Source: Thermithiobacillus tepidarius DSM 3134 | GTDB taxonomy: Bacteria; Pseudomonadota; Gammaproteobacteria; Acidithiobacillales; Thermithiobacillaceae | Direction: 5' to 3' | DNA: 64,000 bases | NCBI RefSeq assembly: GCF_000423825.1 | Contig: NZ_AUIS01000007.1 | Location: forward strand, 1-64,000 | Shown: in pieces, positions 6,233 through 23,724 of the stretch | How positions within the stretch are numbered: position 1 is the stretch's first letter | How the letters are laid out: the number at the start of each line of letters is the position of its first letter | The notes under the pieces: generated by a model | Seen by the model: only the letters and a program-made list of their open reading frames with translations | What the model was told of the DNA's origin: nothing | Databases searched by the model: none | Program-made: the position numbers and the translations under genes

Positions 6233-6373
6233 CGTCGCCGTGCCGCCGGCGCCCCGGCCGCACCGGGGCGCCGGCACGCCCCGCCCGAACCGCGCTCCAG
6301 CGGCTCGCGAATCCCCGGAAATGGGCTACACTTCCCCCTTTGGCAGCTTTCCCGAGAACGGCCGCGCCCTTTC

Positions 6374-8241: not shown

Positions 8242-8348
8242 GGATGGTTTCCGCCGAGGGAGCCAACTGGACGGGCACTGGCGCCCAATGGCAGGAGCAG
8301 CCTGTCCCCGCGGCTCGCGCCCGCTGCTGAGCGGGTGCCGGCTGCGGA

Positions 8349-8588: not shown

Positions 8589-8723
8589 GTCGGGGCTCTC
8601 CAGCTCAGCCCAACCGACTCCACAGCCACAGCCCACTCCCCCTGACCCACCCCGCCCCCGAGCGCCCCCGATTGCACGCGACCAAGCCAACAAACATAAT
8701 AAAAAAGCAAAACATCGAATCAC

Positions 8724-8747
8724 TTCCATTCACGTTAATGAATGGAA
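8724..8747. promoter_or_regulatory. Perfect palindrome, probable LysR operator
   Basis: TTCCATTCA (8724-8732) and TGAATGGAA (8739-8747) form a perfect nine-base inverted repeat with a six-base spacer. Its core fits the T-N11-A rule for LysR-type regulators. It ends 24 bases before the probable TTG start of the adjacent LysR gene and overlaps an upstream in-frame ATG, which argues against that ATG being the start. Autoregulation is likely. The half-site CCATTCA reappears upstream of dabB in locus 1. Confidence 0.6.
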
Positions 8748-8771
8748 CGTCCTTACGGAAAGGAACCGGCC

Positions 8772-9785
8772 TTGAATGTGACCTTTCGCCAACTGCGCCT
8801 GCTGGAAGCGGTGGCGCGGCATTCCAGCTTTACCCGCGCGTCCGAGGAACTGCACCTGACCCAGCCTGCGGTGTCGACCCAGATCAAGCAATTGGAAGAA
8901 GCCGTGGGCATGCCCCTGTTCGAGCAGATCGGCAAGAAGATTTTCCTCACCGAAGCCGGCAAGGAGATGTACGCCTTCAGCCGCGCGATCGCGCAGCAGT
9001 TCCGCGACGTCGAGTCGGTGCTGGACGACATGAAGGGCGTGAAGCGCGGCACGCTGTCGCTGACGGTCACCAGCACCGGCAACTACTTCGCCCCCTATCT
9101 GCTGGCGGCCTTCGTCGACCGCCATCCCGGCACCCAGGTGCACCTGGAGGTCAGGAATCGCGAGGAGGTGGTGAGCCAGTTGCAGGAGAACATTCCGGAC
9201 ATGGTGGTGATGGGAACGCCGCCCCACAACATCGAGCTCCAGGCGCAAGCCTTTCTGCGCAACCCGCTGGTGATCATCGCACCGCCGGACCACCCCTTGG
9301 TGGGCGTGGATCAAGTGCCGCTCAGCCGGCTGATCGGCGAGAACTTCATCCTGCGCGAGCGCGGCTCGGGCACGCGCATGGCGGTGGAGCGCTTCTTTCA
9401 GCAGCGCGGCGTGAAGATCAATACCTCGATGGAGATGAGCGGCAACGAAGCCATCAAGCATGCGGTCATGGCTGGCCTGGGGCTGGGCATCGTGTCGCTG
9501 CACACGCTGGAATTCGAACTGGCGCTGGACCGGATTGCCATTCTGAGCGTGGAGGGCTTTCCGATCATGAAGGAGTGGTATCTCGTCACCCGCAGCGGCA
9601 AGCGCATGTCGCCCATTGCGCAGGCCTTCCACGAATTCGTGCTGACCGAAGCCGAGCAGATCATCAAGCTGCCGCAGCCGAATCCGGCGCCCCGCCCAGG
9701 GCAGCGCGGGAAGCACGCGGACTTGCGTGCCGCCGAGCCTTCGCACTTCGGCCTTTCGCGTCCGGGCAGCGCCGAAAGCCGCTGA
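8772..9785 (+). CDS. LysR-type regulator, CbbR-like, of DAB locus 1
   Basis: This DNA-binding regulator begins with the CbbR-style helix-turn-helix: VTFRQLRLLEAVARHSSFTR, then ASEELHLTQPAVSTQIKQLE. A co-inducer-binding domain of two Rossmann-like lobes follows (GVKRGTLSLTVTSTGNYFAP, FILRERGSGTRMAVERFF). CbbR proteins sense metabolites such as NADPH or RuBP and control carbon-fixation genes. I prefer the TTG at 8772 (LNVTFRQL), preceded by AAAGGAACC. An ATG at 8742 is also in frame but lies inside a perfect palindrome. The gene is convergent with the dabB-dabA-PII operon. Regulation of that operon is inferred from position and shared half-sites. Confidence 0.88.
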   Translation: MNVTFRQLRLLEAVARHSSFTRASEELHLTQPAVSTQIKQLEEAVGMPLFEQIGKKIFLTEAGKEMYAFSRAIAQQFRDVESVLDDMKGVKRGTLSLTVTSTGNYFAPYLLAAFVDRHPGTQVHLEVRNREEVVSQLQENIPDMVVMGTPPHNIELQAQAFLRNPLVIIAPPDHPLVGVDQVPLSRLIGENFILRERGSGTRMAVERFFQQRGVKINTSMEMSGNEAIKHAVMAGLGLGIVSLHTLEFELALDRIAILSVEGFPIMKEWYLVTRSGKRMSPIAQAFHEFVLTEAEQIIKLPQPNPAPRPGQRGKHADLRAAEPSHFGLSRPGSAESR

Positions 9786-9911
9786 AGGCACGGGCAGGCA
9801 CGGCGCGCGGGCCTGATGCCCCAGGCTTGCGATGCGGCGTGCGCCCCTTGCGGAACGAGCCCCCGCCGCGCCGGAATCGATCCCGCGCGCCCGATGGCCG
9901 GGGCATCCGGC

Positions 9912-10238
9912 TCAGCTCTTGAATTTCACCAAGCGGCTGACCTGGATGTCCGAGATGAACACCACGCCGGTGTGCTTGTTGAAAAACGGCGCGAAGCCTT
10001 CGAGGATGGGTTCCACCAACTCCTCGGGAACGGCCACGATGATCATGATCAACACCGCGTCCTCGTTGAACATGAGGTGGCCCTCATGGAAGCCGTGCCG
10101 GCCCTTGCCGGACAGATTGCCGACAATGGTGTAGCCCGTGACGCCTGCGCGGTCGAGCAGATCGGTGGCAAACTCCTGATGCGCGCCCTCGATGATGATC
10201 TCCAGCTTCTTGACGGGGCTGAGATTGAGATTGGTCAT
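9912..10238 (-). CDS. PII-like signalling protein of DAB locus 1
   Basis: This 108-aa protein has the ferredoxin-like PII fold pattern: KKLEIIIEGAHQEFATDLLD, a strand GYTIVGNLSGKGRHG, VLIMIIVAVPEELVEPILEG and a C-terminal VVFISDIQVSRL. The T-loop segment (GKGRHGFHEGHLMF) lacks the uridylylated tyrosine of nitrogen PII, so it is more like the carbon-associated PII-like proteins. Its ATG overlaps the dabA stop as ATGA, so it is translationally coupled to dabA. Members beside DAB and SbtA-type transporters are thought to gate transport according to nucleotide or bicarbonate status; that role here is inference. It is the last gene of the operon. Confidence 0.82.
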   Translation of the reverse strand: MTNLNLSPVKKLEIIIEGAHQEFATDLLDRAGVTGYTIVGNLSGKGRHGFHEGHLMFNEDAVLIMIIVAVPEELVEPILEGFAPFFNKHTGVVFISDIQVSRLVKFKS

Positions 10239-13200
10239 GCCGCATTCTCCTTTGCTTCGACGGTGATGCCGGATGCACGTGCCACGCGCTGGCGCCATTC
10301 CCCATCTTCGAATACGTGGAAGATCTGGGTCTCCGGATCCACGATGACCATGCGGATCCAGCCATTGTGGACGAGGTGCTTGATGGTCGCCACCGCTTCG
10401 ATGGCCCGCCGAGCCGTCTCGAACGGCGCCTCGAGCACGGTGATCAGCCGCAAGGGCTCGTGATAGGGCTCGCCATCCTTGAGCACGGTCTGCGAGGGCA
10501 GGCCGGTGCGCAGATCGCTCAGATTGCCGGTCATGACGCCGAAACGGCCCGCGATGTTGTGGTAGGCCTTGCTGCCGCTGCCGTAATGCTCGTTGTCGAC
10601 GGCCGAGAAGTAGTGCTCCATGTTGATCCACTGGCCGACCACCACCGGCCCGGCCAGGATGTTCTCCAGCAGGCGGCCCTTGGGATCGCAGCGGTAGTCG
10701 TAGGAGTTCAGGAAGCTACGGGCCTCGAGGTCCATGTGCTCGGTGATGTGGCGGCGGCCGACGATGAAGGCCGCATTGCGCGACAGCCCCCACTCGGGCC
10801 GCACCTGCGACCAGTCCATGGCATTGCGCCGCGCATTGCGGTACGCCTTTTCCGGGTCATCGCTGCTGTCGGCGGGCTCCAGGGTCTGGAGCCGCTCCGC
10901 CGCGCTCAGGCGCGAAGCAGCCCGCAGGCCGTTGGTCAGCCGCTCCAGGTACACCAGGTGGCTCGGCGGCAGCAGCTCGAGGTCATAGAGCCGCAGCTCG
11001 TCGGTGGTGGTGTTGTGCAGGGCGGGAATGAACCAGGTATCGGCGGCGATGTCGATGCCCTGAGCACGCAGGCGCTCGCGCACCGCCGGCTTGTTGGCCA
11101 TCTGCGCGAAGACCCGGGCGTTGACGATGCCGTGGTTGCCGCCGCAGGCGCCGCAGTCGAGGGCGGATTCGTAAGGATTGTTCTCCGAGCTGCTGCCATG
11201 GCCGGTCAGCAGCACGAAACGCGAGAAGTCCTTGGTTAGGCCGATGGAGCGCAGCGCCTGGCTGACGAAGTGCACCTGCTCGTCCAGGGTGAAGCCGATG
11301 CGCCCCAGGCGCTCGAACTGGATCTGCACATAACCGCGGTCGATGCGATAGACCCGCCGCAGGCAATCGATGAAATTGGCCTCGGCCTGGGCATCCAGCT
11401 TGAACTGGCGCGCGAACTCGGTCGGCCCCTCCTGGTTGCCCATGGCCGCTTCGCGGAGCTCGCGGATCATGTCGTCGGTGATCGCCTCGCGCTCGATGCC
11501 GAGCTCGCGGCCGAGCGCCTTCACGATCATGACCCGCTGCAGGGAGCGGATGATCGAGTCCGCCTGCTCGCGCGTCAGCTTGTCCAACAGCAGGCGACTG
11601 CTCGACCTGGCCGGATGCAGCCGGCTGCGCCAGCGGTTGTATGCCAGCGGCGCGAAGCTCTTGCCGAACATGTCCAGGCCGAAGAGCAGGCCCAGCGCCT
11701 CCACGGTGATGAAGGGCGACAGCACCGAGCCTTTCAGGTCATGGAAGACGTGCTCCAGCGCGGTGACGAAATCATCGTCATCCGTGTTCCGCGCGGTGCT
11801 GAGTTCCAGCACCATGTTCTTGGGGGTGACCACCACCGGGCAGAGATGGGTTTCGCTGCCCTTGTCCAGGCCGACGAAGCTCACCGGCACGCCGAAGAAA
11901 CCGGCGATGCCGTAGGTCTGGTAGTCGCCGAGCTGTTCCAGGTGGCGGCGGATGCGTTCGGAACGCACATCGATGCAAAAAAGCATCTGGGCGAAGGGAC
12001 GCTTCTCGCGCGGCGCCGGCGCCGTCAGCTTCAGCCCGTTCAGCAGCCGATCCATGTGCTGCGCCTCGTGAGCATTCAGCCACATCTGGCCCTCTTCCCG
12101 CTCGAGGCTGGCGAGCATCGGCAACAGGCGATCGACCTCGTTCGGCTTCAGGTGCTCAATCGCATCGGCCATCCCGGCGCGCGCGGCCAGCTGCCGCAAG
12201 CCCGCGGCCATGCGCCGGGCCTCGTCCTCGCGCTTGCGCGCCAGGTATTCGGGCAGCAGGCGGACCATGCGCGCCTTGCGTCCACTCTCGATGGCATCCT
12301 CGACCGCATGCGCCATGGCCGGCAGAACCCGCTTGCCGTGGAGCTCATGGCGCAAATAGGCTTCCTCCGGGTGCTCGTCGACGAAGCGGGCGAGCTCGAC
12401 CGTATTCACCGGGATCCGCTTGCGCTGGGCGTGCTCGCGCAACAGCGCCAATCCCAGCACCAGGCGGATGGCCAGATAATCCACCAGATCGGCCGGATAG
12501 ATCTGATTCCAGTGATAGTGCTTGGCACCCGAGCGCCAGCGGATGAAGCCGGCCCAGCCATGCAGCCGGGTCAGTTCGGCCGTGAAATAATCCATCCAGG
12601 CATCTTCGGGCACCCGCAGCTCGGTCATCACATGGCTGATGATGCCCTCGGGCGTGTCGTCGAGGGCGAGGATCTGCTTGATGTGCAGGCCATGGATGAA
12701 CAGCTTCAGGTTGCGCCGCGCCAGTGCGCTCCAGGCCGTGAACAACCCCTTTTCGCGCCCGGGCATCTGCCAGACGGACTGGCCCTCGTCGAAGAAATCG
12801 AGGCAGCTCTTGATCACCAGCTCGTCCAGGGTCGTGCCGATCTCTGTGCCGAAAAGCGCGTCCACAACGGCGTGCACCGGGCGGCTGGGCGGCATCTCGG
12901 CCTTGACGCGCGCGGCCAGGGACACCGGATCGAGCTCGAACGGGGGCAAGGCAGCGCCGGTGAGCGCGGCATGGACATCACGCCCGTTCGCCAGGGTCGG
13001 GCGCCAACCCAGCGGCTGCTCGACCTGGGTCAGCAGCGTCATCAGCAGTTGTTGCAGATCCAGCCCCGCGAGGGACGGCTGCTTGGCACGGAAGTGCTCG
13101 ATCTGCGCCGCCAGCACGGCCGTGTCGATCTTGCCGCTGGCCAGGTAGCGCTGATAGATGGCACGCGGCAGGTAGGCGCGCGCATGAAAGAGCCGCTCGC

Positions 13201-13354
13201 CCTCGGTCGTCGCCTGCTCAAAGGGCATGTGCTCCAACCCGTGCAGGGGATTGTGGTGGATGAAGGTGCGCATCGGCCAGAAGAAGGGAATGGGTTCGCC
13301 GGCCATCTGGACCATGGCGCGGATCTTGAGTCGTCTCCCGAGTGCGAGCGTCAC
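10235..13354 (-). CDS. dabA: DabA, zinc-dependent carbonic-anhydrase-like subunit of DAB inorganic-carbon transporter (locus 1)
   Basis: This 1039-aa protein belongs to the DUF2309/UPF0753 family, the large peripheral subunit of DAB transporters that make or accumulate bicarbonate in the cytoplasm. The beta-carbonic-anhydrase-like zinc set is complete: Cys 460 and Asp 462 in FCIDVRSERIRRHLE, His 719 in LLTGHGSSSENN, and Cys 734 in LDCGACGG. Near the N-terminus, FFWPMRTFIHHNPLHGLEH is also typical. The start is GTG at 13354, with a perfect AGGAGG six bases before it. That GTG overlaps the stop of the upstream membrane-protein gene (GTGA), and the 3' end overlaps the PII-like gene (ATGA). At 1039 aa it is longer than the locus 2 copy (867 aa). 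Confidence 0.94.
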   Translation of the reverse strand: MTLALGRRLKIRAMVQMAGEPIPFFWPMRTFIHHNPLHGLEHMPFEQATTEGERLFHARAYLPRAIYQRYLASGKIDTAVLAAQIEHFRAKQPSLAGLDLQQLLMTLLTQVEQPLGWRPTLANGRDVHAALTGAALPPFELDPVSLAARVKAEMPPSRPVHAVVDALFGTEIGTTLDELVIKSCLDFFDEGQSVWQMPGREKGLFTAWSALARRNLKLFIHGLHIKQILALDDTPEGIISHVMTELRVPEDAWMDYFTAELTRLHGWAGFIRWRSGAKHYHWNQIYPADLVDYLAIRLVLGLALLREHAQRKRIPVNTVELARFVDEHPEEAYLRHELHGKRVLPAMAHAVEDAIESGRKARMVRLLPEYLARKREDEARRMAAGLRQLAARAGMADAIEHLKPNEVDRLLPMLASLEREEGQMWLNAHEAQHMDRLLNGLKLTAPAPREKRPFAQMLFCIDVRSERIRRHLEQLGDYQTYGIAGFFGVPVSFVGLDKGSETHLCPVVVTPKNMVLELSTARNTDDDDFVTALEHVFHDLKGSVLSPFITVEALGLLFGLDMFGKSFAPLAYNRWRSRLHPARSSSRLLLDKLTREQADSIIRSLQRVMIVKALGRELGIEREAITDDMIRELREAAMGNQEGPTEFARQFKLDAQAEANFIDCLRRVYRIDRGYVQIQFERLGRIGFTLDEQVHFVSQALRSIGLTKDFSRFVLLTGHGSSSENNPYESALDCGACGGNHGIVNARVFAQMANKPAVRERLRAQGIDIAADTWFIPALHNTTTDELRLYDLELLPPSHLVYLERLTNGLRAASRLSAAERLQTLEPADSSDDPEKAYRNARRNAMDWSQVRPEWGLSRNAAFIVGRRHITEHMDLEARSFLNSYDYRCDPKGRLLENILAGPVVVGQWINMEHYFSAVDNEHYGSGSKAYHNIAGRFGVMTGNLSDLRTGLPSQTVLKDGEPYHEPLRLITVLEAPFETARRAIEAVATIKHLVHNGWIRMVIVDPETQIFHVFEDGEWRQRVARASGITVEAKENAA

Positions 13355-14094
13355 AGGCTACCTCCTGTCAGGTAGAGACCGGCAGCCACGAAGGCGACGA
13401 GCAGGCTCGCATACGCCAGCGTGGAAGGTCGTCCGATGTCATCGATGGATCCTTGGCGGGCGGGGCCGACCACGAAGCCCTGCACCAGCCTGATTGCCGC
13501 CCAGCCCCAGATCAGCCAGATGAACACCGTGCCGAGGGCGGCCGACCAGCCGAGCCGCTGCAGCAGGCCCAGCATGGCAAAGAAGGTCGGGAAGGGCGGC
13601 GTGGCAACGCCGGCCAGTGCCGCCAGGACGAGCACGCCGGACAGGCGCGGCAGCATGCCCGCCAGCCCACCGGGCAAGCCCGCGTAGGCCGCGCCGAAGC
13701 GTCGCGACAAAGGACCGGTGAGCAGCGCCAGCAAGGCTGCCGGGAGGCTGAACCAGAAAGCAAAGAACCGCAGCTCGGTGATGCTGGCGCCGCCATTGGC
13801 CAGCGCCCAGGTCAGGGCCAGCGCCGATGTGGCGAGAAAGCTCGCCCACAGGCCGAGGTCCCGCACGGTCAGGAGGCGCAGCGCGTAGAATCCCGCGCTC
13901 AGCAGTGCCCAGGGCACGAAGGCCGACGGGACATCCTGGCCGGCGGCCTGCAACGCCATCACCCCGAGCTGCGGCCAGAGCAGCAACAGCACGAAGCGGG
14001 CAACGGGATGGCGTAGCCGCGTGACCGCGACATTGAGCACGATGCTCAGCGGGAACAGCGGCAGAAACAATCCGGCAATCAGCAGTAGCGTCAT
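13351..14094 (-). CDS. Membrane protein between dabB and dabA (accessory DAB subunit candidate)
   Basis: This 247-aa protein has about seven or eight hydrophobic segments and very few charged residues. It begins MTLLLIAGLFLPLFPLSIVL and ends with a helix followed by GGSL. The word GVATPPFPTFFAMLGLL resembles a discontinuous-helix segment of NuoL/M/N and Mrp-type antiporter subunits, so it may derive from part of such a subunit. I do not recognise it as a named family. It begins one base after the dabB stop and overlaps dabA by four bases, so it is made together with both. The likely role is a membrane partner of the DAB complex, which is inference. Locus 2 has no equivalent. Confidence 0.8.
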   Translation of the reverse strand: MTLLLIAGLFLPLFPLSIVLNVAVTRLRHPVARFVLLLLWPQLGVMALQAAGQDVPSAFVPWALLSAGFYALRLLTVRDLGLWASFLATSALALTWALANGGASITELRFFAFWFSLPAALLALLTGPLSRRFGAAYAGLPGGLAGMLPRLSGVLVLAALAGVATPPFPTFFAMLGLLQRLGWSAALGTVFIWLIWGWAAIRLVQGFVVGPARQGSIDDIGRPSTLAYASLLVAFVAAGLYLTGGSL

Positions 14095-14095
14095 G

Positions 14096-15775
14096 TCACA
14101 CCCACCTCGTCCAGACGTTCAGCCGTTTCGAAAGGGCCAGCACGGATTCCGTCAACCTGGCATACACGTCGGCCACATAGAGTTCGCGCGAAATCAGCGA
14201 ATAGAACGCCAGCTTGAGAGGCGACACATCGCCGTCGCGCGTGCCGCCCCTGGCTGCGGCGTAGTAGGTCGCCAGCCAGCCCAGGACGATGGCGGCCGTC
14301 AGGATCGCGACGAGAACATCGAAGGTCGCCCACGGAATGCTGGCCGCCGCGTAGATGCGTTCGCTCAAGTTCTGGTCCGGGAACAGGAACTGGCTGAAGG
14401 CGTGCTCGATGAGGGTATAGCCGGCCACCACGATGGTGAGCGACAGGATGATCATGCCCATCAGGCGCCACGGGCTCTCGGCATGCAGGCGGTAGGTGGC
14501 GAACAGCAGCTGCGCGCCGGTGACCCAGCCGAAGAACAGCAGGATGATGCCGCCCTGCTGGCCGACGAAATCGCCGCCCACCAGCCAATGGGACAGGCCG
14601 AGGATCACGAACGGCACCACCACCGTGATCGCCGCGGCGACCACCCAGGGCAGGCGGGAAGCCACCGGCTTGCGTTCGACCACGAAGGTGTAGACATCGT
14701 CCTGCGGGACGCCGTCGTGGTTGCGCGCGTTGCCGATCACGCCGCCGGCGCCGAGGAAAAGCGTGCCCTTGAAGAGGCCGTGGGCAATCAGGTGATAGAT
14801 CGCCAGGGAAAAGGCGCCGACGCCGCACTCGACGAACATGAAGCCCATCTGCCCCATGGTGGAATAGCCGAGGGACTTTTTGATGTCATTCTGGGTCAGC
14901 ATGAGCACCGAACCCAGGATGGCCGTGACCAGGCCCACCGCGAAGACCAGGTGCAGCACCTCGCCGGCGTAGACGAAGACCGGGGCGAAGCGGGTGATGA
15001 TGAAGCCGCCGGCGTTGACGATGCCCGCGTGCATCAGGGCCGAGACCGGCGTCGGTCCCTCCATGGTGTAGGGCAGCCAGGTGTGCAGCGGGAACTGCGC
15101 CGAGCGCGCGAAGGCGGCCAGCGCCACCAGCAGGCCGACCGTGGCCGCCAGCGGGAGTCCGAAGATGGTCTGGGTGTCGGGGGCGGCGGCGAGATGCTCG
15201 AAGAGCGCCGGCAGCGACACCGTGCCGAAGGCCTGGTACAGCAGGACCGCGGCCAGCGCCAGCGGCAGATCGCCGAGCCGGTAGGTGAAGAAGGTCCAGA
15301 AGGCGTAGCGTTGCGCGGTCGGCCGCTGCAGATCGTGGCCGAGCAGGAAATACAGCAGCACGCCGACCAGATGCCACGCCACCAGCAGGGTAATGAGATC
15401 GCCTGCGGCCACCATCAATAGAATGGTGGCCGTCATCAGATCCAGCAGCACGAAGAAGCGGACATAGCCGCGCTCCTCGGCCATGTAGCGAACCGAGTAG
15501 ACGTGCACCACCAAGCTGATGCCCGCGACCGCCAGGGACATGATGCTGCTCAGTGGATCGTGGTACAGACTGCCCCAAGGCAGGCCGGATGATATCCATT
15601 GGGCGTCCCGCTCGCTCAAATACAGCACCAGCGAGGCGGCGGCGAGCAGAAGGGTGATTACCGAAAACGCGACGCTCAGGCGCGCCAAGCTCCGCTGCGG
15701 CCTGCCGGCGAGCAACGCGATCAGTATGGCCGAGGACAGCGGAATGGCCGGAAGCAAAGCTGTCAGTTTGTCCAC
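14096..15775 (-). CDS. dabB: DabB, NuoL-like ion-conducting membrane subunit of DAB (locus 1)
   Basis: This 559-aa polytopic protein belongs to the proton-conducting complex I/Mrp antiporter family and pairs with DabA. Diagnostic segments are VHVYSVRYMAEERGYVRFF, AWHLVGVLLYFLLGH, the core QFPLHTWLPYTMEGPTPVSALMHAGIVNAGG, and QNDIKKSLGYSTMGQMGFM. These hold the conserved Lys and His residues of the ion path. It is shorter than NuoL because the long C-terminal lateral helix is missing, as usual for DabB. The start is GTG at 15775, preceded by GGGAGAG. It is the first gene of the minus-strand operon dabB, membrane protein, dabA, PII-like. Confidence 0.92.
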   Translation of the reverse strand: MDKLTALLPAIPLSSAILIALLAGRPQRSLARLSVAFSVITLLLAAASLVLYLSERDAQWISSGLPWGSLYHDPLSSIMSLAVAGISLVVHVYSVRYMAEERGYVRFFVLLDLMTATILLMVAAGDLITLLVAWHLVGVLLYFLLGHDLQRPTAQRYAFWTFFTYRLGDLPLALAAVLLYQAFGTVSLPALFEHLAAAPDTQTIFGLPLAATVGLLVALAAFARSAQFPLHTWLPYTMEGPTPVSALMHAGIVNAGGFIITRFAPVFVYAGEVLHLVFAVGLVTAILGSVLMLTQNDIKKSLGYSTMGQMGFMFVECGVGAFSLAIYHLIAHGLFKGTLFLGAGGVIGNARNHDGVPQDDVYTFVVERKPVASRLPWVVAAAITVVVPFVILGLSHWLVGGDFVGQQGGIILLFFGWVTGAQLLFATYRLHAESPWRLMGMIILSLTIVVAGYTLIEHAFSQFLFPDQNLSERIYAAASIPWATFDVLVAILTAAIVLGWLATYYAAARGGTRDGDVSPLKLAFYSLISRELYVADVYARLTESVLALSKRLNVWTRWV

Positions 15776-16189
15776 TGTGTCAACTCTCCCGTATGCAAGT
15801 TGTTTTCATTCAGCGCCTCGGCGGCGCGGGGAAACCGCAGGGTGCGGGGCCATTCGGCGGCACCCGCCCGGCGGCAAATGCGGCCACTGCCGCGCCGACG
15901 GATACATCATGCCGGGGGCAGGTCAGCAACGCCCCGACCAAGGCTTTGAGAAGCGGCAATCCGGGCAGCGGATCAGTGGTTCCTGTCCCGAAAAAGCCGC
16001 ATGGCCGGATGCAGCCCGTGGATGAGCTGGATGCAGCCATTCATTGGAAGCTAATGGTAGATATTGAATACGATAAACAACAGTCTTGATTTTTTATGGC
16101 AACCATAAACCGAAATGAATGGATGGCGCGCGGGAACGCGGCGTGAGCTGACGCTGCGCCGCCGGCGGCGCCGAGCCGGAAGCGACCTG
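15776..16189 (-). promoter_or_regulatory. Regulatory region of DAB locus 1
   Basis: This 414-bp region upstream of dabB has a distinctly AT-rich patch at about 16038-16125. Within it, 16093-16109 is the perfect palindrome TTTATGGCAACCATAAA, whose core satisfies the LysR T-N11-A rule. Flanking it, CCATTCATT (16037-16045) and AATGAATGG (16114-16122) form a wider inverted pair. These match the half-site CCATTCA of the palindrome before the LysR gene at 8772. I take this as the CbbR-type control region of the operon. Short frames in the region look random. The promoter itself cannot be placed with confidence. Confidence 0.55.
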
Positions 16190-17000
16190 CTCTTGTCCAA
16201 GGACCCGCTCCAGCGCACACGATGCCAACCATGGCAGGAAAAGATGAGGCCCACCATGCCGTTGCAGACGTTCAGCGTTCCAGGGCGCAGGTCAAGCGTC
16301 TCGTCCATGAAGCGCAGGTCACGAAAGCCGCGCAGGATCACGGGCAAGGCATCCGCCGGCATCGCGGCGTCATCCGGACAACCCCGGCGCGAAGGCCAGG
16401 CAAAGATCCGCGCCAGCAAGCTCGCTGATGCCACGGATGAGAAAGCGACAAGGGTCGCGCAGCGGCCAAAGGGTGGCGCGCGAACTGGAAAAATGCAGCT
16501 TGGCGTGAAAGACGCCATGCATTGTGATCAATTCAGCGAGAGGATCTAGCCCCGCGTCGATGCGCTCATCCATCGGGCTGGCGACCCGCTCCTGCTGAAA
16601 CAAACCGGCACGCATGGCCGGATCGCCCTGGTGCCGCATCCACTGTCCCGACTGCTCGCAGAGCGGCTGGGTGGCTGGCACTTCGCGCAGGTCGAAGTCC
16701 ACGCCGAGATAGCCGCGGGATTCGCCGTCGGGCTCTCGATCCGCTGCACAGCAGTCAGAGAGACGCCGCGCATTGCGGCTGATGCAGGCTGCCGACAGGG
16801 AGAACGGGCTGCCCGCCAGCGCTTCCGCCAGATACGCCCGATCGCTGCGGTCTCGGCCGCAGTGCTCCGTCAGGAGCCCGCCCGGGAAGCATTGGCAGCA
16901 AGTTGGCGGGCATGACCGTCCAGCACGCGCAGGTACTTGCAGTAGGGCAGCTCGGCCAGGCCGTCCATCAGCAGGCGTTCCAGGCCCGCAGCGAGCCTGG
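16190..17000 (-). pseudogene. Decayed PDC-sensor-domain-like protein gene
   Basis: Recognisable pieces of one protein lie in order on the minus strand but in different frames. First is LLMDGLAELPYCKYLRVLDG, ended by a stop at 16870-16872. Then, in another frame, come RDRSDRAYLAEALAGSPFSL and ISRNARR. A third frame supplies SLTAVQRIESP, and the second resumes with DGESRGYLGVDFDLREVP through FHAKLHFSSSRATLW to DLCLAF. A further shift gives LRFMDETLDLRPGTLNVCNG. Together they resemble PDC (Cache-like) sensor proteins seen in other proteobacteria; this family match is from memory of the motifs. At least four frame disruptions and a missing start make it nonfunctional. Confidence 0.75.
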
Positions 17001-17009
17001 CCCCAGGTC

Positions 17010-17584
17010 CTAGGCCGCGAGGCCGATGTTCGCCATGCGCAACGGATTGGCATGGGCGCGTCCGTCGGTCTCGGCGAGGGCCTGCCCGCTCGCCGTCGCC
17101 AATGCCCAGGCGCAGGCGTCTTCCAGGCCGGTCCAGGCATCGATTCCCCTACGCATGCCCGAATCGCATGCGCCTTCCAAGCGCAGGACCAGATGCTGTG
17201 CCGGGAACCCCGCCTCTTGGGCGAAGGCCTCGAGCGCAGCCCAATGGCGAATGAAGCGGCGCGCGAAGCGCGCCCGCCCTTGGGCCACGCGGTGCACTCG
17301 AGGGCACGCTCGTCCGCTGCCCACGCCAATCGGCAAGCCGATCAGCTCCACGGCGATGCGGGCGTTGCGCCGTGCCGCTTCCAACTGGGTGCCCGGGCGC
17401 GGTGTTTCGCGCGTGAAGCGCCAAGGCGGTCCGTGTCGTAACCGGCCACGTGCCTGATGCGGCACCCCAGCGCCTTTTCCACGGCCGGGGCGATGACCCG
17501 TTCCTTGCCGTGCCGGGTTGGCAGCGCGATTTCCGCGCCGGTATACACCGCTGGCAGACGGCGGATGCAACGCTCATGGCGCAC
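17010..17584 (-). pseudogene. Decayed DUF6671 gene
   Basis: The 5' part reads in one frame as VYTGAEIALPTRHGKERVIA, then PAVEKALGCRIRHVAGYDTDRLG. It shifts frame near 17421 and continues FTRETPRPGTQLEAARRNAR then IAVELIGLPIGVGS. The expected central GLASEGxFGP region is then missing, and the frame resumes with VHRVAQGRARFARRFIRHWA and HLVLRLEG, ending at HANPLRMANIGLAA. The words ALPTRHGKE, DTDRLG and the ending are those of DUF6671 proteins. The gene therefore has a frameshift, an internal deletion and a lost C-terminus. Its start overlaps the dabA stop of locus 2, so it was once the next gene of that operon. Confidence 0.75.
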
Positions 17585-20177
17585 TCGCTTCGAACCGCTC
17601 CCAGCGCCCGCTTGCCACGCGCCGGAAGATGCCGCCGTCCGTGCCGATGCGGAACAGGTGCAGCCAGCCGTTCTCCACCAACTGGCGCACCAGCTCGTGG
17701 CGGGCGATGACGTCGTCCATGGCGGCCGCGGGCGCTTCGATGAACACGCTCAGGCGCAGGGGCTCGTGCACCCAGCGCTTGCCGTCGTGCAGCGACTGCA
17801 AGGACAGGCCGACGCGCAGGTCGCCGCCGTTGCCCTCCAGCACGCCGATGGCGCCGCCGACCACGTTGTGCAGCACCTTGTTGCCACTGCCGAAGCGCTG
17901 ATTGTCGACTACCGAGCCGTAGTACTGCATGTTGATCCAGTTGGCCACCACCAACGGTGCGGTCATGATCAGCTCCAGGGTGCGGAAGCTTTCATCGGCC
18001 TGCCACCGGTACTCATGCAGGAAGGCGCGGCCGCCCAGATCGACGCCGAGGGTGCGCTCCCGGGGCGCGGCGATGAAGGCCGCGTTGCCGGCCAGGCCCC
18101 ATTCCGGGCGCACCTGGGACCAGTCGCGGCTGCGCCGGCGCACATCGGCCTCCACGGCCCGGTCCGGCAGGCCGGCGGTGCCGAGCAGCGCGGCGCGCTG
18201 CATGCGGGTCAGGCCGCCGGCCTGCTCCAGCCACTGGCGCAGTTGCGCCAGGTCCTGTGCCAGCGGTTCGGGTACTTCGTCGGTGTCGAACAGGCGCACG
18301 TCGTCGGTGGTGGTGTCGTGCAGACCGGCCAGGAACCAGGTGTCCTCCGGGATGACGATGCCGCGCTCGCGCAAACCGCGCCGCACCGCCGGCTGGTTCA
18401 GCAGCGCGGCCACCACGCGGGCACTGGCCTCGCCGGTCTGGCCGGCGCAGGCACCACAGTCCAGACCGGTGGCGTGGGGATTGTTCACCGTGCTGCTGCC
18501 GTGCCCCACCAGCAGCACCAAGCGCGCGAAATCGCCGGTTAGGGCCATGGCGCGCAGGATACGCTCCGCGTTGTCGACCCAATCGGCCTGCGGGATGCCC
18601 GCCTCCGCGTGCTGGCCGCAGCACTGCGCCTGCGGCGCGGCGGCCAGGGCGGGGCCGATCCGGCTGATGAGTTGCTTGTCCAACCCCTGCGTGAACGGGT
18701 CGGGTACCGGCCGGCTCCAGCCGAAACTGTCACTGATCAGCTTGGGTGCATACATCAGCCCGGCGGCCTCGACGAAGGAAAAGCAGGAGGCCGCCGACAG
18801 CTTGAACCCCTTCCAGGCCTTGCTCAGACTGATGCGCTGGCGCCGCTTGGCCGCTTGCTGCGCATTCGCCTGCGGATCGTCGGTCTTCAGCTGCTCGCAT
18901 ACGCGGTAGGCGGGGTTGAAGATCACCGGGACGTGAGAACGGCCGGCGCCGGCGCCGAGCGGCACGTATTCGATGAAGACGCCGAAGAAGCCGGCGAACC
19001 CGAGCGTCTGCACCTTGGGCGCCACCGTTTCCAGGGCGCGGCGGAATACCTCGGAACGCACGTCGATGCAGAAGGCCGCCTGCACTGCCGGCCGCGCGGC
19101 GGCCCGGGCGCGTTCCCCGTGTTTGGGCGCGGCACCCAGCCCGGCGATCACCTCGCGCTGGAAGCCGATCTCCATGGCGTTGAGCAGGATGCGGTCGACC
19201 TCCGCAGCCGCTTGGCGCTTGGCGGACGGCGGCCGCATGCTGGCGGCCAACATCTCACGCCAGCGCGCCACCAGGGCCGCAGTGCCCTTTTCCGTGAACA
19301 GCAGGACGTCCCACATCAGCCGAATGGCCAGCAGATCGACCATGGAATCGTCCTGCTGCCCAGCGAGTTCCGCCTGCCAGCGCAAGTAGCGGGTCCAGGC
19401 CGCCCAACCGCCGATGCTCAGCAGTGCGGCGTGCAGGTAGCGCTCCGTCGCCGCCGGCGGAATGTCCAGCTGCTCGAGCGCCCAGGCAATGGCCGCGCGC
19501 GGCTGGGCAGGCAGCCTGGCGACGGCCGCCCGGAAGTCGCCCAGACCCATCATGGCGGGGCTCCGGTCGAGAGCGGCGGCCTTGCGCCAGGCGGCATACA
19601 GGGACTGCCCGCGCCAGGGCATGCTCACCATGGCCTGGCCCAGGTCGAAATAGGCGGCGCAATGCAGGCTGATGCGCTCGGTGACGAAACTCGTCCACAT
19701 GCCGCCCTCCACCCGGTCGAGCACCTCGCTGACCGAAGCCATGCCCATCTTCGGCCGGGGGGCTTCCGAGGCGAGCACCCGTTCAATGGCCGCCACATCC
19801 ATTTGGCTGCCGCAGCGGGCGATGGCCAATTCCAGGTCCTCGCGCGTGATGCGGCCCGCGGCCAGCTGTTCGCGATAGTAGGCACGCGGCATATAGAGGC
19901 TGCTGCCAACGACGCGGGCCAGGGTGTCGGACGCCTCCTGGAATGTCTGGTCGCGCAGGCCGAAAAACGGGTTGACGGCGACGAAGTGCTTCAGCGGCCA
20001 CAGGGGCGCGATGCGCGCGCAGGCTGCGTCGATGAGCCGGTCCAGTTCGACGGCGTCCGTCTGGGCCGGGCCGGCGGCGTGGGCGCCGGCCCGGCCCGGC
20101 CCCTGCTCCGGACGGGTGTCTGTTTCGCGGACCGGCAGATCGGACTCTTTCAAGAAAATGGCATCGGTGGCGCTCAT
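17574..20177 (-). CDS. dabA: DabA, zinc-dependent subunit of DAB inorganic-carbon transporter (locus 2)
   Basis: This 867-aa second DUF2309 protein is clearly a different branch from the locus 1 copy. The zinc residues are conserved: Cys 370 and Asp 372 in FCIDVRSEVFRRALE, His 559 in LLVGHGSSTVNN, Cys 574 in LDCGACAGQ. The N-terminal region has LWPLKHFVAVNPFFGLRDQT in place of the locus 1 FFWPMRTFIHHNP. I chose the ATG at 20177 (MSATDAIFL), preceded by AAGGAGGCTA; an in-frame extension to 20222 runs into dabB. It starts three bases after the dabB stop, so the two form a tight operon. A decayed gene follows where an accessory gene might have stood. Confidence 0.94.
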   Translation of the reverse strand: MSATDAIFLKESDLPVRETDTRPEQGPGRAGAHAAGPAQTDAVELDRLIDAACARIAPLWPLKHFVAVNPFFGLRDQTFQEASDTLARVVGSSLYMPRAYYREQLAAGRITREDLELAIARCGSQMDVAAIERVLASEAPRPKMGMASVSEVLDRVEGGMWTSFVTERISLHCAAYFDLGQAMVSMPWRGQSLYAAWRKAAALDRSPAMMGLGDFRAAVARLPAQPRAAIAWALEQLDIPPAATERYLHAALLSIGGWAAWTRYLRWQAELAGQQDDSMVDLLAIRLMWDVLLFTEKGTAALVARWREMLAASMRPPSAKRQAAAEVDRILLNAMEIGFQREVIAGLGAAPKHGERARAAARPAVQAAFCIDVRSEVFRRALETVAPKVQTLGFAGFFGVFIEYVPLGAGAGRSHVPVIFNPAYRVCEQLKTDDPQANAQQAAKRRQRISLSKAWKGFKLSAASCFSFVEAAGLMYAPKLISDSFGWSRPVPDPFTQGLDKQLISRIGPALAAAPQAQCCGQHAEAGIPQADWVDNAERILRAMALTGDFARLVLLVGHGSSTVNNPHATGLDCGACAGQTGEASARVVAALLNQPAVRRGLRERGIVIPEDTWFLAGLHDTTTDDVRLFDTDEVPEPLAQDLAQLRQWLEQAGGLTRMQRAALLGTAGLPDRAVEADVRRRSRDWSQVRPEWGLAGNAAFIAAPRERTLGVDLGGRAFLHEYRWQADESFRTLELIMTAPLVVANWINMQYYGSVVDNQRFGSGNKVLHNVVGGAIGVLEGNGGDLRVGLSLQSLHDGKRWVHEPLRLSVFIEAPAAAMDDVIARHELVRQLVENGWLHLFRIGTDGGIFRRVASGRWERFEASAP

Positions 20178-20179
20178 GA

Positions 20180-21808
20180 TTAGCCTCCTTGGGACTGGGT
20201 GGACTGGAGCGGCCCGGGCCACACGCGCTGCAACAATCGTGTGATGTAAACGTCGATGTACAGGCCGTTGTACAGATGCACGTACAGGGCCTCCCGCAGG
20301 CGGGAGGGGGTCGTGCTCCTGAAGAACTGCTGCACCATCAGCAGGCCGAGAAAAGCGGCGATGGTCAGCCCGATGAGCGCGGGCTGAAAGGCGCTGGCCG
20401 CATCGCGCAGCGGCAGCACGCTGCCGTGCAGGGCGCGCTCGAACACCCCGTGCAGGGCGAAGTAAGCAACGGAAACGATGGCGGCAAGGCCCAGAACGCG
20501 CAGCAGGAAAGCCGGGCTGCCCGGCAAGCTGGCCGCCTGCAGCAGCAACTGGCTCAGGGCGATGGCCACGATGGCTCCCGCGGCAAGCAGCGCGGGCTGC
20601 GCCTGCGGCATGATGCCGAATGCCGCGCCGACGCCCAGGGCCATCAGCCCCGCGCCGAGCAGGGCGAAACCCAGGTGGCCGAGCTGCCAGTCCTTGCCTT
20701 GGTAAGCCACGGCGGGTGCGCGAAAGCCGTCGACACCGCTGCCGGAAGCCAGGAAGGCATGCGCCTTGTACAGCGAGTGGGCCACCAGGTGCAGCATGGC
20801 CAGGCTATACAGCCCAAGGCCGCACTCCAGCAGCATGAAGCCCATCTGCGCCGTGGTGGACCAGGCGAGCGAGACCTTGATGCTGGTCTGTGTAAGCATG
20901 ACCAGGGACGCCAAGGTCAGCGTAACCAGGCCGACGAGCGCCAACAGGCCCAGGGCCGTTCCCGAATGGGACAGAACCGGACTCATGCGGATGACGAGGA
21001 ATGCCCCGGCGTTGACGATGCCCGCGTGCAGGAGCGCGGACACCGGCGTGGGCGCCTCCATCACCTGGATCAGCCAGCCGTGAAAGGGAAACTGGGCCGA
21101 CTTGAGGCCGGCGCTCAGCACGATCAGCATCGAGGCCCATTGCAGGGCCGGCGGCAGCGGCCCGTCCAGCGCGGCCATGCGGCGGAAGATCTCCCCGAAC
21201 TCCAAGGTGTGGAGCGTCGACCCGATCAGGAAGATCGCGAGCAGCAGGCTGGCATCGCCGATGCGGCTGGCGACGAACTTTTTATGGGCCGCCAGCACGG
21301 CGGCCGGCCGCTCGCGATAGAACAGCAGCAGTTGATGCAGGCAGAGGCTGGTCGCGATCCAGGCCAGGGAGAACATGAGCAGGTTGCCGGATACGATCAA
21401 GGTCAGGATGGCGGCGAGCGTCAGGGCCAACCACTTGTGGAAGCGGCCTTGGCTGGCATCGCCGTCGAGGTAGTTGCGCGCATAGCGGGACACCACCACT
21501 CCCACGAAGGACACGAGCATCAGCATGATAATGGTCACGCCATTGACGTAGCTGCCGACGGAAAACGCGCCAACATCGCCGGGCACGGGCAGCGAGAACA
21601 AAGTCCACGAATGCGTCGCGCCGAAACCGTGCGCCACCGCCGCGAGCAACGCACCGGCGAAGGCCAGCCACGCGGCGGCGATGTTCATGCGTGCCATCAG
21701 GCGGGGACGGGCGTTGGCCAGCGCCGTCGGCATGAGGCCGACGGCCCAAAGCAGCAACGGGGCGGCCAGAACGAGAACGGGGGTCAACGAACTCAGTGTA
21801 GGTGGCAT
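20180..21808 (-). CDS. dabB: DabB, NuoL-like ion-conducting membrane subunit of DAB (locus 2)
   Basis: This 542-aa polytopic membrane protein has the complex I/Mrp antiporter core: SYVNGVTIIMLMLVSFVGVV, SRYARNYLDGD, FPFHGWLIQVMEAPTPVSAL, LHAGIVNAGAFLVIRMSP, and TSIKVSLAWSTTAQMGFM with LLECGLGLYSLAMLHLVAHS. It is the partner of the DabA encoded directly downstream. Ion flow through this subunit is thought to drive hydration of CO2 by DabA. It is the first gene of its operon. A LysR gene is transcribed away from it across a 134-bp gap that holds a likely LysR operator. Confidence 0.92.
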   Translation of the reverse strand: MPPTLSSLTPVLVLAAPLLLWAVGLMPTALANARPRLMARMNIAAAWLAFAGALLAAVAHGFGATHSWTLFSLPVPGDVGAFSVGSYVNGVTIIMLMLVSFVGVVVSRYARNYLDGDASQGRFHKWLALTLAAILTLIVSGNLLMFSLAWIATSLCLHQLLLFYRERPAAVLAAHKKFVASRIGDASLLLAIFLIGSTLHTLEFGEIFRRMAALDGPLPPALQWASMLIVLSAGLKSAQFPFHGWLIQVMEAPTPVSALLHAGIVNAGAFLVIRMSPVLSHSGTALGLLALVGLVTLTLASLVMLTQTSIKVSLAWSTTAQMGFMLLECGLGLYSLAMLHLVAHSLYKAHAFLASGSGVDGFRAPAVAYQGKDWQLGHLGFALLGAGLMALGVGAAFGIMPQAQPALLAAGAIVAIALSQLLLQAASLPGSPAFLLRVLGLAAIVSVAYFALHGVFERALHGSVLPLRDAASAFQPALIGLTIAAFLGLLMVQQFFRSTTPSRLREALYVHLYNGLYIDVYITRLLQRVWPGPLQSTQSQGG

Positions 21809-21888
21809 GGCCTGACTCCTTGCGGTTGGTGATGAGAACGCCTGGCCACCGAGTCTAGGAAAGATGGATGCAAAACAAAAATGAATTG

Positions 21889-21925
21889 TTAGAATAGAAA
21901 TGATAGCCTGTAGGCAATACTCTAA
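21889..21925. promoter_or_regulatory. Inverted repeat in the dabB/LysR divergent promoter region
   Basis: TTAGAATAG (21889-21897) and AATACTCTAA (21916-21925) form an imperfect inverted repeat (TTAGA.TA against TACTCTAA) with about 18 bases between them. It lies in an AT-rich stretch 18 bases before the LysR start codon. Its position in a divergent LysR intergenic region and its TNA-type half-sites fit a CbbR-like operator serving both directions. Distances are compatible, but the promoter elements are not clear. Confidence 0.5.
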
Positions 21926-21942
21926 CAGGAGGGGTGAGCGTC

Positions 21943-22851
21943 ATGATGCGCGTCAGCTTGCGTCAGTTGCGGACATTCGAGGCGGTAGCCCGCCTGAAGA
22001 GCTTTTCGCGGGCGGCTGAAGAAATGCACGTCACGCAGCCGACGGTCTCGAAACAGATCCGGCTGCTCCACGAAGAGGTGGGACTGCCGCTGCTCGAACA
22101 GATCGGCAAAAAGGTCTTTCTCACCCAGGCGGGCGAAGAGCTCTATGCCACCTGTGCCGACTGGCTGGACACCTGGGCCCGTTTCGAGCAGACCATCGCG
22201 GACCTCAAGGGCGTGAAGCGGGGACGATTGCGGATCGCGGCGGTCACCACCACCAAGTACTTCATGCCGCGGATCCTTGGGCCCTTTTGCGCCCAGTATC
22301 CGGGAATCGATGTCGCCCTGGAGGTCGTCAACCGGGATCGCCTGCTGGAGCGGCTCGGGCGCAACCAGGATGATGTCTACATCATGGGTGTGCCGCCCGA
22401 GGAACTCGACATGGAATGCGAGCCCTTCATGGAAAACCCGCTGGTGGTGCTGGCGCCGATCTCGCACCCGCTGGCGCGGCGCAAGCGCATCCCCTTCGCC
22501 GACCTGGCAAACGAGCCCTTCCTCGTGCGGGAACGCGGCTCGGGCACGCGCATGACCATCGAACGCGAGTTCCAGGAGCGTCAGGCGCAGCTCAGGATAC
22601 GCATGGAACTGGGCAGCAACGAGGCAATCAAACAGGCAGTCGCCGGCGGACTCGGGCTGGCGCTCCTGTCCCAGAGCACCCTCCATCCCGATCCCCACCG
22701 GGAAGCGGTGACCGTGCTCGACGTGCAGGGCTTTCCCATCCGGCGCTCCTGGTATGTGGTTCGCCCGCGGCACAAGCAAATGTCGGTGGTGGCGCGCACC
22801 TTCCTCGACTTTCTGCGCGAGCATGTGCGGCTGCTCGAGCCGCGGCACTGA
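21943..22851 (+). CDS. LysR-type regulator, CbbR-like, of DAB locus 2
   Basis: This protein of about 302 aa has an N-terminal helix-turn-helix (SLRQLRTFEAVARLKSFSRA, MHVTQPTVSKQIRLL) and a LysR substrate domain. It has the same landmarks as the locus 1 regulator: GVKRGRLRIAAVTTTKYFMP, PFLVRERGSGTRMTI and GSNEAIKQAVAGGLGLALLS. The two regulators are clearly paralogues. AGGAGGGG stands nine bases before ATG 21943 and fixes the start; an upstream in-frame GTG overlaps that site. It is divergent from dabB-dabA of locus 2 and most likely controls it. Confidence 0.9.
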   Translation: MMRVSLRQLRTFEAVARLKSFSRAAEEMHVTQPTVSKQIRLLHEEVGLPLLEQIGKKVFLTQAGEELYATCADWLDTWARFEQTIADLKGVKRGRLRIAAVTTTKYFMPRILGPFCAQYPGIDVALEVVNRDRLLERLGRNQDDVYIMGVPPEELDMECEPFMENPLVVLAPISHPLARRKRIPFADLANEPFLVRERGSGTRMTIEREFQERQAQLRIRMELGSNEAIKQAVAGGLGLALLSQSTLHPDPHREAVTVLDVQGFPIRRSWYVVRPRHKQMSVVARTFLDFLREHVRLLEPRH

Positions 22852-22977: not shown

Positions 22978-23724
22978 ATGAGCTTCCCCTTGTTACCCGT
23001 TTCCGGCTGGTGGGTGGTCCTCTACGTGCTGCTCGCCACCCACATCACCATCGCGTCGGTGACCATCTACCTGCACCGCTCGCAATCGCACATGTCCGTC
23101 ATCCTCCACCCGCTGGTCAGCCACTTCATGCGCTTCTGGCTCTGGCTCACCACCGGCATGGTCACCAAGGAGTGGGTATCCTCCCATCGCAAGCACCACG
23201 CCTTCTGCGAACGCGAGGGCGATCCCCACAGCCCGAAGATCTACGGCATCTGGCACGTGCTCTTCGGCGGCGCCTTCCTGTACCGCAAGGCGGTCCAGGA
23301 CCGCGACATGGTCGAGAAATACGGGCGCGGCACGCCGGAAGACTGGGTCGAGCGCAAGCTGTACAGCCGCTTCCCGGCTTTGGGCATCACCCTGCTGCTG
23401 GCCGTCAACCTGCTGCTCTTCGGCTGGCTGGCGGGCTTTCTGGCCTGGGGCGTGCAGATGCTGTGGATCCCCTTCTGGGCGGCGGGCGTGATCAACGGCC
23501 TCGGCCACTTCACCGGCTACCGCAACTTCCAGGTCAAGGACAACAGCACCAACCTCTTTCCCTGGGGCATCCTGATCGGCGGCGAGGAGCTGCACAACAA
23601 TCATCACCGCTACGCCGCTAGCCCCAAGCTGGCCGTGAAGCCCTGGGAGTTCGACATCGGCTGGGCCTATATCCGCCTGCTGGAGCTCCTCGGCCTGGCC
23701 AAGGCCAAGCGGGTCATCCAATAA
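22978..23724 (+). CDS. Membrane fatty acid desaturase (acyl-CoA delta-9 type)
   Basis: This 248-aa membrane di-iron enzyme introduces a double bond into saturated acyl chains. The three histidine boxes are present: HRSQSH near residue 33, HRKHH near 65, and HNNHH near 203, with a further HFTGYRN. Hydrophobic segments lie before and between the boxes. The length is short compared with eukaryotic enzymes but normal for this proteobacterial group. TAGGAGATTCCC precedes the ATG. The product would adjust membrane fluidity aerobically. A bidirectional terminator follows directly. Confidence 0.9.
   Translation: MSFPLLPVSGWWVVLYVLLATHITIASVTIYLHRSQSHMSVILHPLVSHFMRFWLWLTTGMVTKEWVSSHRKHHAFCEREGDPHSPKIYGIWHVLFGGAFLYRKAVQDRDMVEKYGRGTPEDWVERKLYSRFPALGITLLLAVNLLLFGWLAGFLAWGVQMLWIPFWAAGVINGLGHFTGYRNFQVKDNSTNLFPWGILIGGEELHNNHHRYAASPKLAVKPWEFDIGWAYIRLLELLGLAKAKRVIQ

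Follow-up and report, generated by a model that had tools for sequence, protein, structure and literature searches.

Adjacent DAB1- and DAB2-type inorganic-carbon loci of separate ancestry in Thermithiobacillus tepidarius

The window studied here, that is, the whole stretch of 64,000 nucleotides (nt) at positions 1 to 64,000 of contig NZ_AUIS01000007.1 (our contig C5) of Thermithiobacillus tepidarius DSM 3134, a sulfur-oxidising bacterium from a spring, contains two loci for DAB-type inorganic-carbon pumps, each built around a dabB and a dabA gene (Table 1). The genome comprises 2,958,498 bp on 43 contigs, and a profile search of all of it with PF10070 gave two matches, the DabA of locus 1 and the DabA of locus 2. 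The G+C content of T. tepidarius DSM 3134T is 66.8% (PMC5037610), which the composition of the window fits; the kilobases around the locus 2 control region have a G+C of 0.64. Both loci lie on the minus strand with 1.8 kb between them, and locus 2, of the DAB2 type, precedes locus 1, of the DAB1 type. The initial annotation of this DNA had described locus 1 as four coupled genes with a convergent LysR regulator and locus 2 as a bare dabB-dabA pair with a divergent LysR regulator, and every gene was found at the position claimed for it. The interval 9912-22851 given for the two loci holds all of these genes except the locus 1 LysR gene, which starts at 8742, outside it. The locus 2 pair is bare as to intact genes only, as the gap between dabA2 and dabB1 holds two broken genes in the operon direction, one for a DUF6671 protein and one for a Cache-like protein. 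In locus 1, dabB and the membrane gene are 1 nt apart, and the membrane gene and dabA, as well as dabA and the PII gene, overlap by 4 nt. The four dab frames are all open, with a codon-position G+C the same as that of the other genes in the window. DabA2 has 882 amino acids (aa) when read from GTG and 867 aa when read from the ATG at 20177.

Table 1. Features of the two DAB loci and their borders. Positions are those of the window.
Feature	Position	Strand	Evidence or remark
LysR regulator, CbbR-like, convergent to locus 1	8742..9785	+	PF00126, PF03466
PII-family gene of locus 1	9912..10238	-	PF00543; ATG overlaps dabA stop
dabA of locus 1 (DabA1 type, 1039 aa)	10235..13354	-	PF10070, 884.6 bits
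Third DAB1 gene (247 aa), NuoM/ND4-like C-terminal half	13351..14094	-	AlphaFold2 fold, profiles, fusions
dabB of locus 1 (DabB1 type, 559 aa)	14096..15775	-	PF00361, PF00662
Broken Cache-like gene, weak PF02743, at least two frames	16189..17040	-	three pieces match 332-aa L013 protein
DUF6671 (PF20376) gene remnant, immediately 3' of dabA2	16971..17545	-	two frames, gap, stop
dabA of locus 2 (DabA2 type)	17574..20222	-	PF10070, 956.9 bits
dabB of locus 2 (DabB2 type, 542 aa)	20180..21808	-	PF00361
Intergenic stretch between divergent LysR and locus 2 dabB	21809..21933	.	G+C 0.46
LysR regulator, CbbR-like, divergent from locus 2	21934..22851	+	PF00126, PF03466

We compared the two loci with the DAB types already described. 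Against the solved DabA2 of Halothiobacillus neapolitanus (PDB 9rd0_A), the DabA of locus 2 scored 784 bits and that of locus 1 scored 340 bits; the DabB of locus 2 scored 377.5 bits against H. neapolitanus DabB2 (9rd0_B). Locus 2 belongs to the DAB2 clade and has a nuoL-like gene upstream of dabA and a reversed LysR gene at its 5' end, as expected of the DAB2 type. Locus 1 belongs to the DAB1 clade and has the coupled order dabB, membrane gene, dabA and PII of the DAB1 type; in both the DabA and the DabB tree, this clade includes a metagenome-assembled genome (MAG) labelled H. neapolitanus (rows from locus L033; loci, genomes and contigs are given L, G and C numbers here). The DAB2 complex of H. 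neapolitanus is encoded by two genes, and its DAB1 includes an additional small membrane protein (PMC13144422); the DAB1 genes of this species stand in the order nuoL-like gene, transmembrane hypothetical gene, gene for a 1046-aa DUF2309 protein and PII gene (PMC4633670). A 2017 account of YbcC/COG3002, the COGNAT paper, distinguished clade A, with nuoL-ybcC and a reversed LysR gene at the 5' end, clade B, with PII at the 3' end, and a third clade C, in which dabA comes before nuoL and the membrane subunits are more numerous (PMC5700660). The layout of clade A is that of locus 2 and the layout of clade B is that of locus 1, whereas the membrane gene of clade B, the gene after the clade A dabA and loci carrying both types are not discussed in the passages of that paper on these clades. 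Likewise, H. neapolitanus DAB2 (hneap_0211/0212; PDB 9rd0, 9rd8, 9rd9) is a dabB-dabA pair like locus 2 and agrees with it in the zinc ligands, in the finger glutamate and the L658 equivalent, and in the proton-path residues; unlike that pair, the dabA of locus 2 is followed by two broken genes and, 1.8 kb downstream, by a DAB1 locus. H. neapolitanus DAB1 (hneap_0907-0909 and the PII/SbtB gene) has the gene order of locus 1 but sits between cbbO and cbbQ (PMC4633670), whereas the DAB1 locus of the window adjoins DAB2. Therefore, both architectures are known types, their presence in one genome is already known from H. neapolitanus, and the pair itself is ordinary; what is added to it here is a half-length third subunit and a DUF6671 partner gene. 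A third clade of DabA, with four antiporter-like frames beside dabA in six of eight loci (L174, L175, L176, L177, L186 and L187), was considered as new and set aside, as it looks like clade C of the COGNAT paper. Among its remaining loci, L170 has one antiporter-like frame and L173 and L180 have none over the threshold; Pfam confirmed PF00361 in all four frames of L176 and of L186.

The identity between the two copies in the window is 37% for DabA and 35% for DabB. Trees were built from 70 DabA rows and from 66 DabB rows. Each tree separates the two copies into deep clades with good support, and the DAB1/DAB2 split agrees between the two. The DAB2-side clade contains 29 rows in each; its support is 100 for DabA, on a stem 1.15 changes per column long, and 100/99 for DabB. 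The DabA tree came from a quick search in which the program flagged long branches; its rows were chosen by hand from 184 DabA frames, among which many genes had been retrieved twice, and all 29 DAB2-side rows had been labelled DAB2-type beforehand (L122 and L182 were so labelled, yet fall outside the clade). Since the separation into deep clades holds for both proteins, local duplication is rejected, and the separate ancestry that had been proposed for the loci is supported by the phylogenies that had been suggested as a check. A tandem duplication followed by divergence, in which one of the loci was copied from the other at this site, would suit the shared strand, the short distance, the same core genes and the related LysR regulators, and dabA1 and PII are in fact repeated in tandem in locus L040. 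However, the DabAs and the DabBs sit in separate deep clades, each with relatives of its own, the gene sets of the loci are unlike, and G001, a genome of another genus of the same family, has each type on a different contig; unless long branches mislead them, both trees refute this origin, and we regard it as highly improbable. The tandem repeat of L040 (Nitrosomonas eutropha Nm 57, 6189-13431) is a local duplication or possibly an assembly artefact.

The nearest rows to the DabA1 and DabB1 of the window are those of G001 and of Thiobacillaceae; the nearest to DabA2 and DabB2 are those of G001, Thiobacillus sp. 0-1251 and an Acidiferrobacterales MAG. A tree forcing the Acidithiobacillia together was rejected for DabA1 (6 rows versus 20, p-AU 1e-49) and for DabA2 (6 rows versus 13, p-AU 3e-4). 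The genes thus cluster with Thiobacillus and others and not with Acidithiobacillus, which argues for transfer; that is, the DAB genes were probably exchanged with Thiobacillus-like bacteria, in either direction. The genome paper flagged 178 genes as possibly derived from Thiobacillus and Sulfuricella (PMC5037610). The named loci of our comparison are the best 80 of 571 confirmed relatives, all of DabA1 type, and form an uneven sample of the family. DAB2 lies within the fetched flanks of five of these best 80 (L013, L015, L016, L029 and L057); 39 of the 80 have at least 5 kb on both sides, and four of those 39 have a nearby DAB2. A sixth case, L162 of genome G016, a member of the same order, has its dabA2 in pieces. 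The arrangement varies, with DAB2 preceding DAB1 in L015 and L016 as in the window, divergent types in L029 and convergent types in L057. In L013 (Thiobacillus sp. 0-1251), DAB2 and its LysR gene separate PII from the LysR gene that in T. thioparus (L014) comes directly after PII. Some points weigh against an account of the pair as cassettes joined by movement and exchange: the inner forks of the DAB2 clade are weak, and the trees do not set the direction of any transfer. In addition, G001 carries DAB1 and DAB2 on different contigs, which means that closeness is not needed for use of the two types.

Next to ancestry, the residues bear on whether and how the two loci would work. Both DabAs had been said to keep the zinc set (Cys, Asp, His, Cys), and alignment to H. 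neapolitanus DabA2 bears this out: the equivalents of C351, D353, R355, H524 and C539 are present as C460, D462, R464, H719 and C734 in DabA1, with finger glutamate E552, and as C385, D387, R389, H574 and C589 in DabA2, with finger glutamate E485 (numbered from GTG). The zinc ligands, the Asp-Arg pair, the finger glutamate (E444 in H. neapolitanus) and the L658 equivalent occur in both DabAs of the window and in 31/31 DabA1 and 31/31 DabA2 rows; the third DabA clade (8 rows) has no glutamate at the finger column in any row and a His as the L658 equivalent. In H. neapolitanus DabB2 numbering, DabB1 keeps S256, H260, K310, S316, H339, H343 and K347 and differs at I151 and K235, for which it has H135 and R224. 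The DabB2 of the window keeps all nine positions, including I151 and K235, as read by eye from the alignment. H. neapolitanus DAB1 (with the third gene) and DAB2 each complement carbonic-anhydrase-free Escherichia coli (PMC7714395, PMC13144422). For H. neapolitanus DAB2, a zinc site, CO2 binding and growth rescue dependent on the listed residues are described, and the purified protein performed no CO2 hydration without membrane potential (PMC13144422). With the catalytic and proton-path residues kept and both H. neapolitanus types functioning in E. coli, it is plausible, as first suggested, that both window loci function as pumps. The initial annotation had also suggested that the loci may serve different CO2 ranges or ions, and two pumps with different coupling ions, one using protons and the other sodium, might be read from the sodium-linked role argued for MpsAB (cited in PMC13144422) and from the two substituted positions of DabB1. 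Against this, the other seven positions are kept in both DabBs of the window, the finger glutamate is kept in both DabAs, and the published DAB2 assay did not need sodium (PMC13144422). Because the proton-path residues are common to both and DAB2 is independent of sodium, the alignments lend no support to different ions, and we consider such a division quite unlikely. The comparison points rather to loci that would differ in regulation, with PII on DAB1 only, and in the membrane arm, with a half subunit in DAB1 only.

The half subunit is the 247-aa product of the third DAB1 gene, called hypothetical in H. neapolitanus (PMC13144422). A Pfam scan of the window protein gave no match. An AlphaFold2 (AF2) model built with 49 homologues reached a pLDDT of 95.6 and a pTM of 0.92, and the best 50 of its 104 Foldseek rows with E <=0.001 were entries for complex I, photosynthetic NDH, Mrp and formate hydrogenlyase. 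VIA-align superposed the model on chain M of bovine complex I (7qsd_M) with Z 29.0 and a root-mean-square deviation (rmsd) of 2.3, with 245 residues aligned to 197-455. The family profile retrieved 18 PDB sequences at E <=10, all NuoM, ND4 or ND5 (best E 2.4e-7), and hhalign against 12 NuoM-family proteins of relatives gave E 6.5e-6 and a probability of 85% over 181 columns; the third-subunit alignment consisted of 49 hand-picked frames of 63, and the NuoM-family alignment of 12 of 20 frames from relatives. The predicted fold therefore clearly makes the protein a homologue of the C-terminal half of NuoM: it matches residues ~197-455 of NuoM/ND4 and MrpD subunits over its whole length but, unlike them, comprises that half only. 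At the NuoM columns of two Lys and one His, other residues stand in 8/8 members compared, and one Glu column is a gap; we take these positions to be proton-path residues of NuoM. The protein is thus no full-length NuoM, having half the length and lacking the Lys and Glu residues, and is probably non-conducting. In four Aquificota loci (L065, L068, L071 and L080; 754-790 aa), the domain is fused to the C-terminus of DabB, and in three Nitrospirota loci (L084, L088 and L090), it is the C-terminal half of a 438-439-aa protein; of the full-length proteins, those of L084 and L088 were scanned with Pfam, and both match PF00361 over the cut-off. This search covered the frames of 19 loci. With fused and full-length forms included, the third subunit occurs in 67/72 DAB1-type loci with at least 2.7 kb upstream (57 tblastn matches and 10 profile matches).

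Some results weigh against this assignment or against a general role in DAB1. E 0.01 versus TIGR01972 was reached by only 23/49 third-subunit members and E 1 versus PF00361 by 4/49, and the subunit was not found in 5/72 of the DAB1-type loci (L056, L082, L087, L089 and L091). The presence of the protein in the DAB1 complex is itself something we infer from gene coupling and fusion. In addition, hhalign of the third subunit versus DabB1 gave no match (probability 0.7%), and a derivation from DabB1 itself was rejected for that reason. The family has already been noted in passing in print (PMC7714395), whereas its half length and its fused and full-length forms have no mention in the relevant parts of PMC7714395, PMC8438413, PMC9894237 and PMC13144422. 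Since the third subunit appears to be a stripped NuoM half, DAB1 and DAB2 would differ in the build of the membrane arm and perhaps in coupling ratio. This poses a question for the first DAB1 structure, namely, whether the half-subunit completes a half-channel, braces the DabA finger or docks PII.

The PII protein of locus 1 scored 173.6 bits against 5d4n over nearly its whole length, and the best SbtB scored 25 bits; it is nearer to the structures 5d4l-5d4p than to SbtB or other PII chains. We take 5d4l-5d4p, 5drk and 5ds7 to be structures of CPII, a carboxysome-associated PII, which are presumably linked to bicarbonate and ADP/AMP. PII follows dabA1 in 73/74 loci with at least 450 nt downstream, judged by tblastn positions, the exception being L056. 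By analogy with SbtB and CPII, the PII protein would most likely respond to bicarbonate and adenylates and act on DAB1 as a brake or as an activator. For both LysR regulators, the best NCBIfam model was CbbR (NF045990), with 291 bits for locus 1 and 245.5 bits for locus 2, each below the cut-off of 450; they are 55% and 48% identical, respectively, to the regulator encoded next to cbbL in the carboxysome locus of contig C27. Two points count against this view of regulation: an action of PII on DAB1 rests on gene order and homology, and the pattern TNA-N7-TNA, which we take to be the CbbR-type box, occurred 0, 1 and 0 times in the three control regions, not above shuffled sequences, with none in 21809..21933.

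We then consider the two broken genes behind dabA2. The DUF6671 remnant consists of two frames with an internal gap and one stop; no zinc-ribbon end was found in it, and it matched PF20376 with E 1.2e-4 and 22.3 bits, under the cut-off of 23.8. It is the only PF20376 match in the genome, where no intact copy was found. The pieces of the Cache-like gene at 16388-16885, 16189-16401 and 16723-17040 (one stop) are 72, 57 and 44% identical, respectively, to a 332-aa protein of L013, and the region is 76% identical to the L013 DNA over 761 columns. Elsewhere in the genome, the Cache-like protein has only a weak match on contig C15 (E 1.3e-5). In L013, a short piece of DUF6671 is left and the frame of the Cache-like gene is open; in G001, both genes are missing beside an open DAB2 pair. 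Relatives have intact DUF6671 and Cache-like genes beside a DAB2-type dabA, indicating that the DAB2 cassette lost the two genes here. This loss might be taken to mean that only one locus works, with DAB2 decaying like its two downstream genes or with DAB1 serving another role. However, the four dab frames are open with ordinary codon-position G+C, the catalytic and proton-path residues are kept, and the DAB2 pair of G001 stays open although the DUF6671 and Cache-like genes are missing beside it; we therefore hold a single working pump to be unlikely and keep to two plausible ones. In Acidithiobacillales genomes, stretches that hold or adjoin dabA2 contain a Cache-like gene with 41-48% identity to that of L013, namely L094, L095, L096, L098, L114, L120, L162, L164, L165, L169 and L201.

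DUF6671 exceeded the cut-off in 12/396 genomes of a phylum sample. DabA was present in 9 of those 12, compared with 71/396 overall (PF10070 over the cut-off), with a Fisher p of 1.7e-5 that treats genomes as independent and is made too generous by their relatedness; 3/12 of the DUF6671 genomes had no DabA. The DUF6671 and DabA matches were <=1.3 kb apart in 6/12. Among the Acidithiobacillales, DUF6671 exceeded the cut-off in 12/31 genomes, lying <=1.6 kb from a DabA match in 7 and farther away or on another contig in 5. PF10070 itself was found in 28/31 of these genomes, with at least two matches in 22/31, some of which are pieces of one gene. DUF6671 is thus a candidate DAB2 partner gene, and no paper naming it was found in the literature library searched. 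A DUF6671 model (3 sequences, pLDDT 58.6) aligned to 1zwy_D with Z 13.2, rmsd 2.3 and 120 aligned residues, and its best Foldseek match, at E 3.5e-3, was to a CinA protein. This hints at a YjjX/ITPase fold but is a lead only, because the model from three sequences is poor. A mention of 'Ham1' in a carboxysome review was tried as a parallel to the YjjX match and dropped, as the passage concerned gives no support.

Taken with the third subunit, we lean somewhat towards a joint interpretation. In it, the third gene encodes a NuoM-like C-terminal half without proton-carrying residues, which certain Nitrospirota have in full length and certain Aquificota as a fusion with DabB, and which would give DAB1 a membrane-arm build, and perhaps a coupling ratio, different from those of DAB2; DUF6671 would be a recurrent DAB2 partner, perhaps a nucleotide-handling protein that resembles YjjX and carries a zinc ribbon, and would be in the course of being lost in several lineages, including this one. 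For the loci as a whole, it is very probable that they encode two membrane-coupled CO2-hydrating pumps of the DAB family (DAB, DAC, YbcC-NuoL), one of each main autotroph type, with a NuoM-like half subunit and PII in DAB1, and that they are ancient paralogues united by the movement of cassettes, probably in exchanges with Thiobacillus-like bacteria. A zinc site resembling that of beta-carbonic anhydrases would be provided by DabA and a proton path resembling that of NuoL by DabB, and proton flow would make CO2 hydration one-way, such that bicarbonate accumulates for the carboxysome; the evidence for these steps comes from H. neapolitanus DAB2, and both window pumps may work alike. DAB2 would be the minimal pair beside its own CbbR-like LysR regulator, and DAB1 would carry the extra, passive and probably non-conducting half-subunit in its membrane arm. 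The PII homologue probably tunes DAB1 to bicarbonate and adenylate levels, and each pump may be switched by its own LysR regulator. For chemolithoautotrophs, DAB pumps are one of the important means of active CO2 uptake, and they have found use in engineered carbon fixation. With both types only kilobases from each other here, their frames open and their regulators distinct, the organism is convenient for asking why autotrophs keep two.

The carboxysome genes of T. tepidarius lie elsewhere. An alpha-carboxysome locus on contig C27 contains cbbL, CsoS2, CsoSCA, two bacterial microcompartment (BMC) shell protein genes, a ParA-like gene, a cbbO-sized von Willebrand factor A (VWA) gene and cbbQ; cbbQ stands next to the cbbO-like gene without an intervening DAB locus. 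DAB1, on C5, is thus not near carboxysome genes, a trait that is seen in H. neapolitanus and is not defining. The text of the genome paper gave no match for 'carboxysome', 'bicarbonate' or 'carbonic anhydrase' (PMC5037610). Three RuBisCO-large-like genes are present, in the carboxysome locus on C27, on C21 and, as a weaker 424-aa frame, on C43 (L009, L010 and L011). A scan of the 64-kb window for transfer RNAs and RNA families at the gathering score gave none. Positions 22978-23724 hold a fatty acid desaturase gene, which follows the locus 2 LysR gene in the same orientation.

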